From the NCBI GenBank assembly GCA_022451065.1, contig JAKUOU010000024.1, positions 5,239 to 53,921 on the forward strand: DNA of 48,683 nt, read 5' to 3'. Both the position numbers and the translations under genes were made by a program. Below are positions 9,769 to 13,967 of this stretch, piece by piece; the stretch's first letter is position 1; each line of letters starts with the position of its first letter. The notes beneath the pieces were generated by a model, which saw nothing but the letters and a program-made list of their open reading frames with translations, was not told where the DNA came from and made no database searches. This DNA is from Pedosphaera sp. Its GTDB lineage: Bacteria > Verrucomicrobiota > Verrucomicrobiia > Limisphaerales > UBA1096.

Positions 9769-10527
9769 CTATTTGCCACAAATCGGACAATCCGACCTCT
9801 GTTGTAACCGCACCGAGTTGAAAGTCATTGCCCGTAAATCACAGGTGACGAGTCGATTAAAAAGAGGTTCGCCCAACCCGGTGATGATCTTAATTGCTTC
9901 CATCGCACCGAAACAACCGACCGCACCCGACACTGCGCCGATCACCGGGAAGCGTCGCTTCCAATCGTCCGGCTCCTCCGGATACAGGCACCGAAGACAG
10001 CCGGTTCTACCTGGAGCAAAACTGGTAATGTGCGCCTCCGTCTCGTACATCGCACACTCGACCATCGGCTTGGCTAGGCGCACACAAGCTGCATTCATCG
10101 CAAAGCGCTCCTCGAACAACGGCGCGCAATCCACCACCACGTCCGCCTGCCCGACGAGTTTGGCGGCGTTGGCCTCGGTGACGTTCCCTGGCACGGCAAC
10201 GATCTCAAGCCTTGGGTTCAGTGCCTTCAGCGACTCGACGGCCGTGTCGATTCGCGCTTGGCCAAGCGCGTCGTGCCGCATAAGCAACTGGCGGTTCAAA
10301 TCGCTTGGCTTAAGCTTTCCCGCATGGGCCAACACCAACCGACCCACCCCGACCGCCGCCAATTCATAAGCCACCAGGCCGCCCACGCCACCAATGCGGC
10401 TTACCATCACCGTGGCCGCCTTGAGACGCCGCTGCCCCTCCTCGCCAAAGCCGGCGACTGTCGTCTGCCACGAGTAAACTTCGCGCTCAGCATCGGTCAG
10501 TTTCGGCAGATCGCTTGGCTTACTCAT
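9769..10527 (-). CDS. ThiF/MoeB-like E1-family protein with altered nucleotide-binding motifs
   Basis: A 252-aa member of the HesA/MoeB/ThiF family, which adenylates the C-terminus of ubiquitin-like sulfur carriers (MoaD, ThiS). Preserved features are the helix after RIGGVGG (44-50), the arginine motif LNRQ (77-80), VVDC (131-134) and both zinc CxxC pairs, Cys177/Cys180 and Cys247/Cys250. The usual GxGGxG has Arg in place of the first Gly, and the acidic D-x-D loop of MoeB is replaced by AHAG, so ATP handling may differ. It overlaps the end of the transporter ATPase gene by 8 bases (ATGAGTAA), the last gene of the oxyanion-uptake operon. That fits molybdopterin synthase activation, but a regulatory or degenerate role is possible. 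Confidence 0.82.
   Translation of the reverse strand: MSKPSDLPKLTDAEREVYSWQTTVAGFGEEGQRRLKAATVMVSRIGGVGGLVAYELAAVGVGRLVLAHAGKLKPSDLNRQLLMRHDALGQARIDTAVESLKALNPRLEIVAVPGNVTEANAAKLVGQADVVVDCAPLFEERFAMNAACVRLAKPMVECAMYETEAHITSFAPGRTGCLRCLYPEEPDDWKRRFPVIGAVSGAVGCFGAMEAIKIITGLGEPLFNRLVTCDLRAMTFNSVRLQQRSDCPICGK
10255..10268. repeat. Iterated palindrome CGCTTGGCCAAGCG, exact copy
   Basis: Perfect palindrome within the ThiF-like gene, where the minus strand encodes Leu-Gly-Gln-Ala (part of DALGQARID). The symmetry extends to 16 bp with flanking G and C. Confidence 0.85.
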
Positions 10528-11161
10528 CGCGCTGCACCTGTCCGTCGGCCAGGCGGAAATGGCAGCCGCCCAAGCGCCTGGCTTCGCTTGGACTGTGTGT
10601 GATGTGCAGAATCGTCACGCCGGTTTCACGGTGTACACGCTCGAGCAATCGACACATCTCCCCGTGCAACTCCTCATCAAGCGCGGCCAGCGGTTCGTCG
10701 AGGCACAGCACCGACGGCCGATGGGCCAGCGCACGACCAAGGGCAACGCGCTGCGCCTCACCGCCACTGATCTTGTCCGGCATGCGGTCGAGCAAGCCGG
10801 TAATCCCGAGCAACTCCGCCAGTTCGTTGACTCGCTTGGCGATCTGCGCCTGGCTAAGCGCGCGCAGCACAAGCCCGAAGGCCAGTTGCTCACGTACAAG
10901 CATCATCGGGAACAACGCCCGATCCTGCGGCACATAGCCAACCCCACGCTCGGCTGGCGGCAGTTGGCTGACATCACGCTCGCCAAGAGTAATTCGACCG
11001 CTGGTAATTTTGCGCAAGCCGCAGATCGCCTCGAGCAGCGTCGTTTTGCCGCTGCCGCTGCCGCCCATCAGTACGCCATACTCGCCAGCGGCCAGTTCAA
11101 GGCCAATGTTGCGCAGCTCAAAACTGCCCTGCCGCAGCACGATGTTTTCAAGGGCAATCAT
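10520..11161 (-). CDS. modC: ABC transporter ATP-binding protein, molybdate type
   Basis: A 213-aa ABC ATPase with Walker A GGSGSGKT (residues 33-40), Q-loop PQDRALFP, signature ISGGEAQR and Walker B VLCLDEP followed by an H-loop (ITHS). It lacks the C-terminal TOBE/MOP domain of long ModC proteins, as many short ModC/TupC/CysA-like subunits do. The longer open frame upstream is not part of the protein: ATG 11161 begins MIALENIVL, the normal start of the domain, and overlaps the permease stop in an ATGA junction. It energises the permease encoded immediately upstream. Molybdate as the substrate is inferred from the family and from the ThiF/MoeB-like neighbour; tungstate or sulfate cannot be excluded. 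Confidence 0.86.
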   Translation of the reverse strand: MIALENIVLRQGSFELRNIGLELAAGEYGVLMGGSGSGKTTLLEAICGLRKITSGRITLGERDVSQLPPAERGVGYVPQDRALFPMMLVREQLAFGLVLRALSQAQIAKRVNELAELLGITGLLDRMPDKISGGEAQRVALGRALAHRPSVLCLDEPLAALDEELHGEMCRLLERVHRETGVTILHITHSPSEARRLGGCHFRLADGQVQRDE

Positions 11162-12420
11162 GCGAAAATCCGTTTCATACCAAGGGTTCGGGCGGTGATG
11201 AATACCACGACGGCGGCGGCGATCATGATGAGTGACACCGCCAGCATCCCCTCGGTGCGCCCGGCCTGTAGCTCGAGAAAGGCACTCGTCGGTAGCACCT
11301 CTGTTTTCTGCCGTGTGGCCCCGGCAAAGACGAGAATAGGCCCGAACTCGCCAAGCGCCCGCGCCCACGCCAGCGTGCCGGCTGCCAACAGGCCGCCCCT
11401 GGCCTGCGGCATGATCACACGCCAAAACGCCTGCCGCCTGTTGCAGCCAAGAGTGAGGGCAACCTGCTCGAAACGCTGCGGGATCTGGTCGAACGTCACG
11501 CGCATCGTCCGCACAGCAAACGCGCACGCCACCATGAATTGCGCCAGCACCACCGCCGGCCATTTGTACACCACCGCGTCGCTGAGCCACTCCGGCATGT
11601 AGCGAAACAGGATGAGCAAGCTAAGGCCCACCACCAGCGGCGGCAGCACGATCGGGATGTCGAGCAGCGTGTCAATGACCGGTTTGCCGCGAAACTCGAA
11701 CCGGCTCATCAAGTATCCGATCGGCACCGCAACCCACAACGACAACAGTGTCGTGAGCGTGCAGCTGATGAGGCTAAGCTTGATCGAAAAACGAATGTCG
11801 CGACTCCGCAGCGCCTGCACGAGCGGGTTGGGCTTGGAGAACGAAAGTTTCGTCGCCGACGGCGCGCCGTTTGCCACCGCGAAGGAAATTTGATTCGTTG
11901 TCGTGTCGGTGATTTCGCGGACGCCGTCCCACCCGGGCCCACCTGCATCGCTCACACGGATGAACTCGCCCCACAACAACCCGTGAGCCACGTCAGTCGT
12001 CACGGTGGCAACATCATTCGTGACGGCGATGCGCAACACGCGCGCCTCCGGCCTCAGGGATGCCGTAATCGGCCTGCCGCTAGCGCGCGGTAGCAGGACG
12101 GCTTGGCCGGCCGCCGCCCGGAACAGGCCGTCACTGGCGATGTGCTGTTCGCCAAGTTGCAGCCCCGCATCATTTTTGCCCTTCCGAAAAAAATAACCCC
12201 GGCTGGGCTCAACCGAGACAGTGACTTCGCCGCCGGTGTATCGCCCCTGCTTCACCATTTCCGGGCCAAGCACCGGCCGATCGCTGTAATTCAAAAACAC
12301 CAAATCGGCCAAGACCATTGCGCCGATAATAAGCAAATAGCTGCCGCCCAGCACGGCCAATCCAACAAGAAACGGCTTGTCGGAAGCGGTACGATAACCG
12401 GGTGGCGCCGGGTCGCTCAC
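11158..12420 (-). CDS. modB: ABC transporter permease, molybdate type, with large extra domain after TM1
   Basis: A 420-aa permease. Residues 210-420 form a normal ModB/CysT-like core with the coupling loop around FEQVALTLGCNRRQAFW. Unusually, a first membrane segment (about 17-40) is followed by an insertion of about 160 residues (45-208) before the core. Within it, residues 132-182 match the pattern of small beta-barrel repeats with an HGL signature (VATVTTDVAHGL, then a Gly-Trp-Asp-Gly turn and TNQISF), as in E1 FCCH-like and phage-virion repeats. The start is GTG 12420: it overlaps the previous stop as GTGA and has GGAGG ten bases upstream. Topology places the insertion outside the membrane. 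Confidence 0.85.
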   Translation of the reverse strand: MSDPAPPGYRTASDKPFLVGLAVLGGSYLLIIGAMVLADLVFLNYSDRPVLGPEMVKQGRYTGGEVTVSVEPSRGYFFRKGKNDAGLQLGEQHIASDGLFRAAAGQAVLLPRASGRPITASLRPEARVLRIAVTNDVATVTTDVAHGLLWGEFIRVSDAGGPGWDGVREITDTTTNQISFAVANGAPSATKLSFSKPNPLVQALRSRDIRFSIKLSLISCTLTTLLSLWVAVPIGYLMSRFEFRGKPVIDTLLDIPIVLPPLVVGLSLLILFRYMPEWLSDAVVYKWPAVVLAQFMVACAFAVRTMRVTFDQIPQRFEQVALTLGCNRRQAFWRVIMPQARGGLLAAGTLAWARALGEFGPILVFAGATRQKTEVLPTSAFLELQAGRTEGMLAVSLIMIAAAVVVFITARTLGMKRIFA

Positions 12421-13967
12421 TGACCGTTGGCCTCCCAACTGAAGCCAAGCTGCTCAAACCGCCGTCGCGATGTCTGCGACGTCAACCACTCCATCAGCCG
12501 CCCGGCCAACTGCGGGTAAGGCGTGGTTTTTCGGGCGGCGACGTTTTGTACGGCGAGTGCACGCTTGGGCTGCAACGGCACGGCGTCGAACCGATCCATT
12601 AGGTGTTGTATGTTTGCCTCGTAAACGAGCGCCACGTCGAGTTTTTGACCTGCCTCCATCGTTTGTACCAGCGTGTGCGCCGTGTCGGCCATCATTGCGA
12701 TGTTCTGCTTGATGGTGTCAAACTGCCCGGTCTCACGGCACAATTCGTGGCTCAACGCGCCAAGCGTGCTCGCCTTGGGATCAGTTGTTCCGACACGCAG
12801 CCCGCGCTTGGCCAAATCGGCGAGCGAGCCGATGCCGTGCGGGTTGCCCTTGGCCACGAGCATCACGATGCGAGTGCTAGACACCTTCAGATCGATACCG
12901 AACGGGTTGCCCATCTTTGCTTGCGCCATGTTGAGGTATGACGCGTCGCACGTCATGAAAATATCCGGCAGTCCCTGCTCGCTGGTCTGCATCTTGCCGA
13001 CCAGTGTACCGCAACCGGCATACACCACGTCGATCCTCGCGCCTTCACGCTTCTGAAACTCGCGGATGGTTTTCTCCACCGCCTCACGGTTCACACCGCC
13101 ACAATCGATGCGCAACGTGGGTGCATCGGCCCACTCGTCGCCGGGTATTGGCACGTAGTGGTGCTTGGCAAATACCGCCCCGCCCCTCGTCTGCGCAGCA
13201 AGGTAGCGGGCAAACTTCAGCGCCAGGACCGAACGCTGGGTCGTTGTCGTGACCGCCACGGAAATGTCCGCCTTGCTTGCCGCCAACTCCGGCAACTCGA
13301 CCACCCGCAGCCCAAACTGCCGTGCGACCGAGTCCCATACAAACGCCGCCCGTGTGCCTGCATTTTCCTTCACCGCCAATGCGGCCTCCGTCACGGTCGG
13401 AAATGAAGCCGCCTTGGCCGCATCCACCGCCGCCCAGTGGCCGGATCGCTCGAGCATCTTTTTTGTCTTCTTGCCAACGCCGGTAAGTGGATCGCATATC
13501 ACGAACGAAAGTTTTTGCGCCAGCACATCGTCGCAGTTGTCCAGGGTCAGGTCGCTGCCCGGCTTGGTACCAAGCACAACCTTCCAAGTGGCGATCTTCA
13601 GTGACTCGGCGGTGAGTCCGTCGACGCGTGCGCGCTCGGCATAAACGTAGTCCGCCGGAATATAGACATCCGCCCGGGGTAAACCGCCCTCCTTGTCTAT
13701 CTTGAGCTTGTTCGCCAGCACACCGCTGCTGCCGTACTCAAGGGACATCTTCGTACCGGTCTCCTGCTCAAATTTCCCGGCCGCCTCCTCGACGGCCTTC
13801 TTAACCCCAGCCGCACAATAGACGACCAATGTCTTCTCGCCGCCCTGTCCATCATCGGCATCCCGATTCAGGAAATACACCAGCGCTCCCACCAGCACTG
13901 CCGTCAACACAAGCCATACCACGCCGCCCTGTCCGCTGCGGCCATATCTGTAATCAGGATCGCCCAT
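12417..13967 (-). CDS. modA: Membrane-anchored tandem (double) molybdate/oxyanion-binding protein
   Basis: A 516-aa protein built from an N-terminal membrane segment (residues 15-33) and two consecutive ModA/SBP_bac_11-like domains. Domain 1 (about 45-285) has YGSSGVLANKL and domain 2 (about 285-505) has YAGCGTLVGKM at the equivalent place. Usual ModA proteins are single-domain, about 250 aa and freely periplasmic or lipid-anchored. Here the signal segment has no cleavage motif or lipobox, so both domains are probably tethered to the inner membrane beside the permease. ATG 13967 has AAGGT three bases upstream; the much longer open frame antisense to the PhzF gene is rejected. It is the first gene of a four-gene overlapping operon, and the promoter should lie within 13968-14069. 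Confidence 0.87.
   Translation of the reverse strand: MGDPDYRYGRSGQGGVVWLVLTAVLVGALVYFLNRDADDGQGGEKTLVVYCAAGVKKAVEEAAGKFEQETGTKMSLEYGSSGVLANKLKIDKEGGLPRADVYIPADYVYAERARVDGLTAESLKIATWKVVLGTKPGSDLTLDNCDDVLAQKLSFVICDPLTGVGKKTKKMLERSGHWAAVDAAKAASFPTVTEAALAVKENAGTRAAFVWDSVARQFGLRVVELPELAASKADISVAVTTTTQRSVLALKFARYLAAQTRGGAVFAKHHYVPIPGDEWADAPTLRIDCGGVNREAVEKTIREFQKREGARIDVVYAGCGTLVGKMQTSEQGLPDIFMTCDASYLNMAQAKMGNPFGIDLKVSSTRIVMLVAKGNPHGIGSLADLAKRGLRVGTTDPKASTLGALSHELCRETGQFDTIKQNIAMMADTAHTLVQTMEAGQKLDVALVYEANIQHLMDRFDAVPLQPKRALAVQNVAARKTTPYPQLAGRLMEWLTSQTSRRRFEQLGFSWEANGQ

Follow-up and report, generated by a model that had tools for sequence, protein, structure and literature searches.

A membrane-anchored tandem ModA-type binding protein in Verrucomicrobiota and its possible role in a two-ligand importer

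A gene coding two ModA-type binding domains in one membrane-anchored chain was found in a 48,683-nucleotide stretch of a Pedosphaera sp. contig (JAKUOU010000024.1 of assembly GCA_022451065.1, positions 5,239 to 53,921), hereafter the window. This architecture recurs in the phylum and is part of a conserved operon, and its two domains, D1 and D2, are of separate ancestry with a fixed difference between their ligand loops. Judged from sequence, the chain could belong to a two-ligand importer in which D1 binds an oxyanion, D2 binds a different and probably thiophilic or metal ligand, and a single permease is shared. This is the reading tentatively preferred here, with the balance close to even.

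Gene and fold of the tandem binding protein

The tandem substrate-binding protein (SBP) was encoded at 12417..13967 on the minus strand of the window by a single stop-free frame of 516 aa running from an ATG at 13967 to a TGA at 12417 (stop included in the coordinates), and GAAGAAGG precedes the ATG. The Pfam family SBP_bac_11 matched the protein twice (whole-protein E 3.8e-71), as did the NCBIfam model TIGR01256 modA, with 66.0 bits summed over the two stretches against a cut-off of 62.5. The N-terminal membrane segment (residues 16-32, 13872..13922, minus strand) was seen as a hydrophobic run of 17 residues in the sequence and as a helix at residues 14-36 in the model; it is followed by NRDADDGQGG and a lipobox was absent. 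This anchor was alike in most relatives, with the exception of L055, which has a lipobox-like ASC.

An AlphaFold2 model built from 13 aligned sequences (mean pLDDT 77.2) consisted of the membrane helix and two periplasmic-binding domains. D1 (residues 46-271, 13155..13832, minus strand) is of ModA type, matching ModA in VIA-align over residues 45-272 with Z of 20-21.7, and its profile reached ModA 9wgd at E 8.3e-26. A linker at residues 272-283 (13119..13154, minus strand), which had low pLDDT at 272-278, leads to D2 (residues 284-512, 12432..13118, minus strand), a domain of ModA/PEB3/AcfC type with VIA-align matches to PEB3, ModA and AcfC at Z of about 21.6-23.5 and a profile match to ModA 8zj6 at E 6.8e-16. 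In the profile comparison ModA was nearest to D1 and to D2.

An earlier note made from the sequence had described two full binding domains in one chain, a membrane segment at the N terminus with no lipobox, and unlike ligand loops. All three held, the loops being SSGVLANKL in D1 and GCGTLVGKM in D2. That note had also named structure prediction as a check, with a half that is not a periplasmic-binding fold, or a frame error joining two genes, as grounds for refutation. The predicted fold is present in both halves, and the joining of two genes by a frame error was ruled out by the open frame and by the fusion in relatives described below. A chance ORF was likewise ruled out by the Pfam matches, the fold and the relatives.

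Distribution and ancestry of the fusion

A scan of genome contigs identified 13 loci, all in Verrucomicrobia/Verrucomicrobiota or taxa within, and in twelve of these the fusion was complete, with best-segment identities of 65-88%, while the thirteenth, L043, ends at a contig edge; this truncated locus was kept outside all pair counts below. Fifty-four of 288 sampled genomes of the phylum matched at E<=0.001, and loci were read for 31 of them, the other 23 being mostly weak single-domain matches. A full-length fusion was found in 17 of the 54, including the window's own genome (G000) and 16 others at 33-38% identity. On the distribution in related genomes, a check named by the earlier note, the fusion thus recurs across Verrucomicrobiota.

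A tree of 88 domains, calculated without L052x and L072_b, grouped all 30 D2 domains in one clade (SH-aLRT 99) and all 30 D1 domains in another together with two singles (SH-aLRT 100). The fusion is therefore old and its domains were never interchanged. D1 and D2 are separate ancient clades with fixed, different ligand loops, so that two ligands, or a relay of one ligand, is a fair reading.

Operon context and permease

The tandem gene is the first of a tight operon on the minus strand and is followed by genes for a ModB-like permease of 420 aa (11158..12420), a ModC-like ABC ATPase of 213 aa (10520..11161) and a ThiF/MoeB-type adenylyltransferase (9769..10527). The GTG start of the permease overlaps the SBP stop, the ATG of the ATPase at 11161 overlaps the permease end, and the adenylyltransferase overlaps the ATPase end. 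One permease and one ATPase thus accompany the tandem SBP, and the proposal that a single permease serves two unlike domains agrees with the one ModB/ModC-type permease adjoining the tethered chain. Against TIGR02141 modB the permease scored 150.6 bits (152.7 in the genome-wide ModB scan), under the cut-off of 182.6, and its score of 186.3 against Mo_ABC_porter was under the cut-off of 210.3. Where the tandem gene stands apart (G004, G187, G199 and G234), the cognate permease was located elsewhere, at 53-61% identity in best segments.

Between its first and second membrane segments the permease has an all-beta insertion of 150 residues (11830..12288, minus strand), which was present in the window and in 9 of 9 near relatives aligned and in none of 12 distant permeases. 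The insertion was modelled with pLDDT of about 70-84 over most of its length, the model of the whole permease was poor (pLDDT 53), and Foldseek returned weak matches only, E1 half-domains among them (E from 0.029).

The two-SBP loci L046 (3522-4325, plus strand) and L058 (11579-12403, plus strand) include a gene in which a ThiS-like domain is joined to ThiF; the frames after it are MoaD-like, as read by eye, and MoeB/ThiF. A rhodanese with a lipoprotein-like start was located immediately after the tandem SBP gene at L048:7963-8451 (-), identified by Pfam, and at L049:9787-10245 (+), identified by similarity.

Ligand-site residues in D1 and D2

Molybdate contacts in ModA include Ser12, Ser39 and Tyr170 according to an excerpt of PMC8895017. 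At these positions the profile alignment placed Gly54, Ser81 and Trp211 in D1 and Val292, Cys319 and Tyr449 in D2. The tandem SBP therefore fails two tested ModA features, having two binding domains where ModA has one per protein, and neither domain having the full set of contact residues given in that excerpt. Ser81 of D1 (13725..13727, minus strand), at the Ser39 position, was serine in 28 and threonine in 2 of the 30 fused proteins, a set that leaves out the separate fusions of L060, L064, L073 and L076, and Cys51 of D1 was conserved in 27 of the 30. Cys319 in the GCG loop (13011..13013, minus strand) and Cys340 in the TCD motif (12948..12950, minus strand), both of D2, were invariant in all 30 and fell on Ser39 and Ala58, respectively, in profile alignments to solved ModA structures (E. 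coli numbering, counted by hand). Arg294 of D2 was also invariant (30/30), while Tyr449, at the Tyr170 position, was retained in 27.

The earlier note had suggested that the domains bind different oxyanions or hand over one ligand. Two ligands or a relay stand as a fair reading, while an oxyanion suits D2 poorly because of the two invariant cysteines at its site positions. The Cys340 column is presumably that of Glu57 in FbpA, a placement derived from where the 2o6a match begins and ends and from the FbpA sequence. This mapping is the main ground for regarding D2 as a putative metal or thiophile site. Glu57 is an iron ligand in FbpA according to an excerpt of PMC2632678. Cys319 and Cys340 could also have a structural role.

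Molybdenum genes in genomes with two binding proteins

Twenty-six genomes from 19 families were labelled by hand as two-SBP genomes (raw counts, kinship ignored). The window genome had matches to MoaA and to the PF00384 molybdoenzymes, no MoeA was found in its assembly (86% complete), and no ModB scored above the cut-off, the operon permease being the best ModB match. With MoaA present and no ModB over the cut-off, molybdate therefore stays plausible for D1 in this genome. A canonical ModB above cut-off was missing from 12 of the 14 MoaA-bearing fused genomes, and in G145 the cognate permease was the sole ModB match. Among distant fused loci that adjoin a ModB gene, MoeB/ThiF was present in all ten from genomes that have MoaA (L046, L047, L051, L053, L054, L056, L057, L058, L059 and L063) and in 0 of 3 from genomes without MoaA (L045, L050 and L052).

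MoaA, MoeA and PF00384 were all missing in 9 of the 26 two-SBP genomes, a search for AOR gave 0 of 26, and nitrogenase was above cut-off in one (G023). G214, G029 and G139 carry the fusion without molybdenum-cofactor genes and still have an intact D1 loop, which argues against a D1 restricted to molybdate. In G189 and G023, ModA and ModB above the NCBI cut-offs and ModC below its own shared one 18 kb stretch with a two-SBP operon, and ModB was above cut-off in G114 and G218 too. A ModA-ModB fusion of 506 aa, both parts above the NCBI cut-offs, was observed at L063:14448-15965 (+) in G023, adjoining a ModC-like gene. No molybdenum riboswitch was found upstream at gathering thresholds in nine sources (the window, L036, L040, L046, L047, L050, L053, L056 and L059).

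The claim that the tandem protein replaces the normal single ModA was too simple, given the nine genomes without the molybdenum genes tested, the AOR and nitrogenase results and the canonical ModABC-like set alongside in G189 and G023. The same findings weakened the reading as a plain molybdate importer, which stays possible for the window genome. In some hosts molybdate is probably among the cargoes, but it cannot be the whole purpose of the system. A further explanation is that both domains bind the same oxyanion, molybdate or tungstate, and the tandem merely boosts capture; ModA being nearest to both domains by profile, the tyrosine retained in most D2 domains and the frequent lack of a canonical ModB in MoaA-bearing fused genomes favor it. 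However, the loop difference is fixed and old, every D2 has cysteine instead of Ser39, and the same nine genomes and two canonical sets count against it, making this explanation quite unlikely.

Other two-receptor arrangements

Adjacent genes for two SBPs beside a ModB-like permease were found in L061, L062, L065, L066, L067, L070 and L072, and separate SBP fusions beside such a permease, in either domain order, in L060, L064, L073 and L076. In all 11 such pairs the Cys340 column had Gly or Ala in one partner, and the other partner had His in ten and Arg in one (L062). The pair of G259 was deduced from two contig ends (L068 and L077). L072 has an additional third, outlying SBP with Ser at this column. 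Ten SBPs for which no partner was seen (L052 second, L054 ModA, L062 third, L063 ModA, L069, L071, L074, L075, L078, which lies close to a contig end, and L079) had Ala or Gly at the column, with Cys or His in 0 of 10. A membrane frame at L066:2785-4113 (-), read by eye from its sequence as ACR3-type arsenite exporter-like, adjoins the SBP pair of that locus.

The PVF neighbor and the G190 locus

A secreted protein of 330-400 aa termed PVF, which begins with the conserved A-C-x-x-P-V-F-R-Y/F-A and carries a CSC motif, recurred with the two-SBP loci. Its alignment showed a conserved CxC and one further Cys, and no Pfam family was over cut-off for three members scanned. PVF matched 31 of the 288 genomes, including 25 of the 26 two-SBP genomes and 6 of the 262 others (raw counts, kinship ignored), and the PVF-bearing two-SBP genomes are spread over 18 families of the phylum. 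The sole two-SBP genome without PVF was that of the window. Two homologues of the related NVRD type are encoded on other contigs of this genome; FtsX- and LolD-like genes accompany one of them, and the other adjoins a PQQ-type protein fragment. The NVRD-type protein on contig C214 likewise gave no Pfam match above cut-off. The two-SBP loci L045, L050, L051, L052, L053, L054, L057, L063, L070, L072 and L076 each combine PVF with an FtsX-like permease and a LolD-like ATPase. PQQ_2 propeller proteins were located near the two-SBP locus in L038, L047, L064, L070 and L073, and a sixth large neighbor scanned, in L068, was a glycosidase. The cysteine domain of the SBP and these recurring neighbors point to a periplasmic pathway.

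In G190 a D1-only SBP of 283 aa (L113:7262-8110, minus strand) occupies the syntenic site. The locus order is a PolA-like gene (read from sequence), the D1-only SBP and a rhodanese, while in the congeners G187 and G199 it is the PolA-like gene, PVF, D1-D2 and the rhodanese. PVF was not found in G190 and the D2 query matched D1 alone, and the genome retains the cognate permease (53% identity) and MoaA. The loss of D2 and PVF together, with D1 and the permease kept, links D2 with PVF, and D1 with the permease, in this single case.

These neighbors bear on a relay, in which D2 takes a ligand such as a thiolated or metal-bound anion, perhaps from PVF/FtsX/LolD, and passes it to D1 and on to the permease, D2 being a feeder and not a second receptor. 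The cysteines of D2 and of PVF, the frequent sharing of a locus with FtsX and LolD, the concentration of PVF in two-SBP genomes and D1 standing alone in G190 are all consistent with it, but ligand transfer from one SBP to another is not known. The GlnPQ domains, moreover, work largely independently according to an excerpt of PMC8025302. On balance a relay is rather unlikely. D2 might also be a sensor or gate that controls D1 uptake through a metal or redox signal at its two invariant extracytoplasmic cysteines and delivers no substrate, and its loss from G190 with D1 and the permease remaining would fit; yet D2 retains the whole two-lobed fold and the adjacent-gene pairs keep two full separate SBPs, and such a role is highly doubtful.

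Proposed model and comparison with known systems

In the two-ligand reading, which we continue to prefer, the tandem SBP would act as receptor for a type I ABC importer, its N terminus anchored in the inner membrane and its domains in series with D1 near the membrane and D2 farther out. D1 and D2 would alternate in docking on one ModB-like/ModC-like permease. D1 is predicted to bind an oxyanion, which in hosts making molybdenum cofactor would be molybdate or tungstate, while D2 would use Cys319 and Cys340 to bind a second ligand, probably a metal complex or a thiophilic metal ion, presumably in cooperation with the PVF neighbor or, in the window genome, an NVRD-type homologue. One permease may thereby serve two nutrients.

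The closest known working principle is that of GlnPQ of Lactococcus, in which tethered tandem domains with a 14 aa linker bind different ligands for one type I ABC importer (excerpt of PMC8025302). Both have two domains in series, a short linker, a tether and one importer. In the GlnPQ of that excerpt, however, permease and binding domains form a single chain and the ligands are amino acids, whereas the Verrucomicrobiota chain is a separate, membrane-anchored protein of ModA type, one of whose domains has a cysteine site; it is not a member of the GlnPQ group because the SBP stop overlaps the permease GTG and no fusion exists. By sequence, both domains as well as the permease and the ATPase count ModABC and WtpABC among their closest relatives, but ModA is single-domain, the permease here is under two family cut-offs, and the two-SBP importer also occurs in hosts that lack the molybdenum-cofactor genes tested. 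PEB3 and AcfC give some of the best structural matches to D2 but are single domains, and its sequence match to them is weaker than to ModA. FbpA-type proteins share the fold class, and Cys340 or His would lie on the iron-ligand position given in the excerpt on FbpA, although a search with the D2 profile at E 0.01 did not extend to them and Glu57 is the only iron ligand mapped.

A broader and unlikely proposal is a class of two-receptor importers in Verrucomicrobiota in which an oxyanion receptor is paired with a soft-metal partner, marked by Cys or His at the ferric-binding position and coupled to a second ABC machine of PVF/NVRD protein, FtsX-like permease, LolD-like ATPase and often a PQQ-type propeller; the two ABC systems would then make up a single pathway for a nutrient or cofactor, independent of molybdenum-cofactor use.

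Tandem SBPs are known as a kind, as in GlnPQ, and the ModA-type tethered tandem is a variant within a wider gene cluster; a search of openly licensed papers turned up no tandem ModA. If two ligands do share one ModBC-type permease, the GlnPQ principle would be extended to metals and oxyanions, and two domains in one chain with a natural loss of D2 in G190 would provide a clean test system for one permease reading two receptors.
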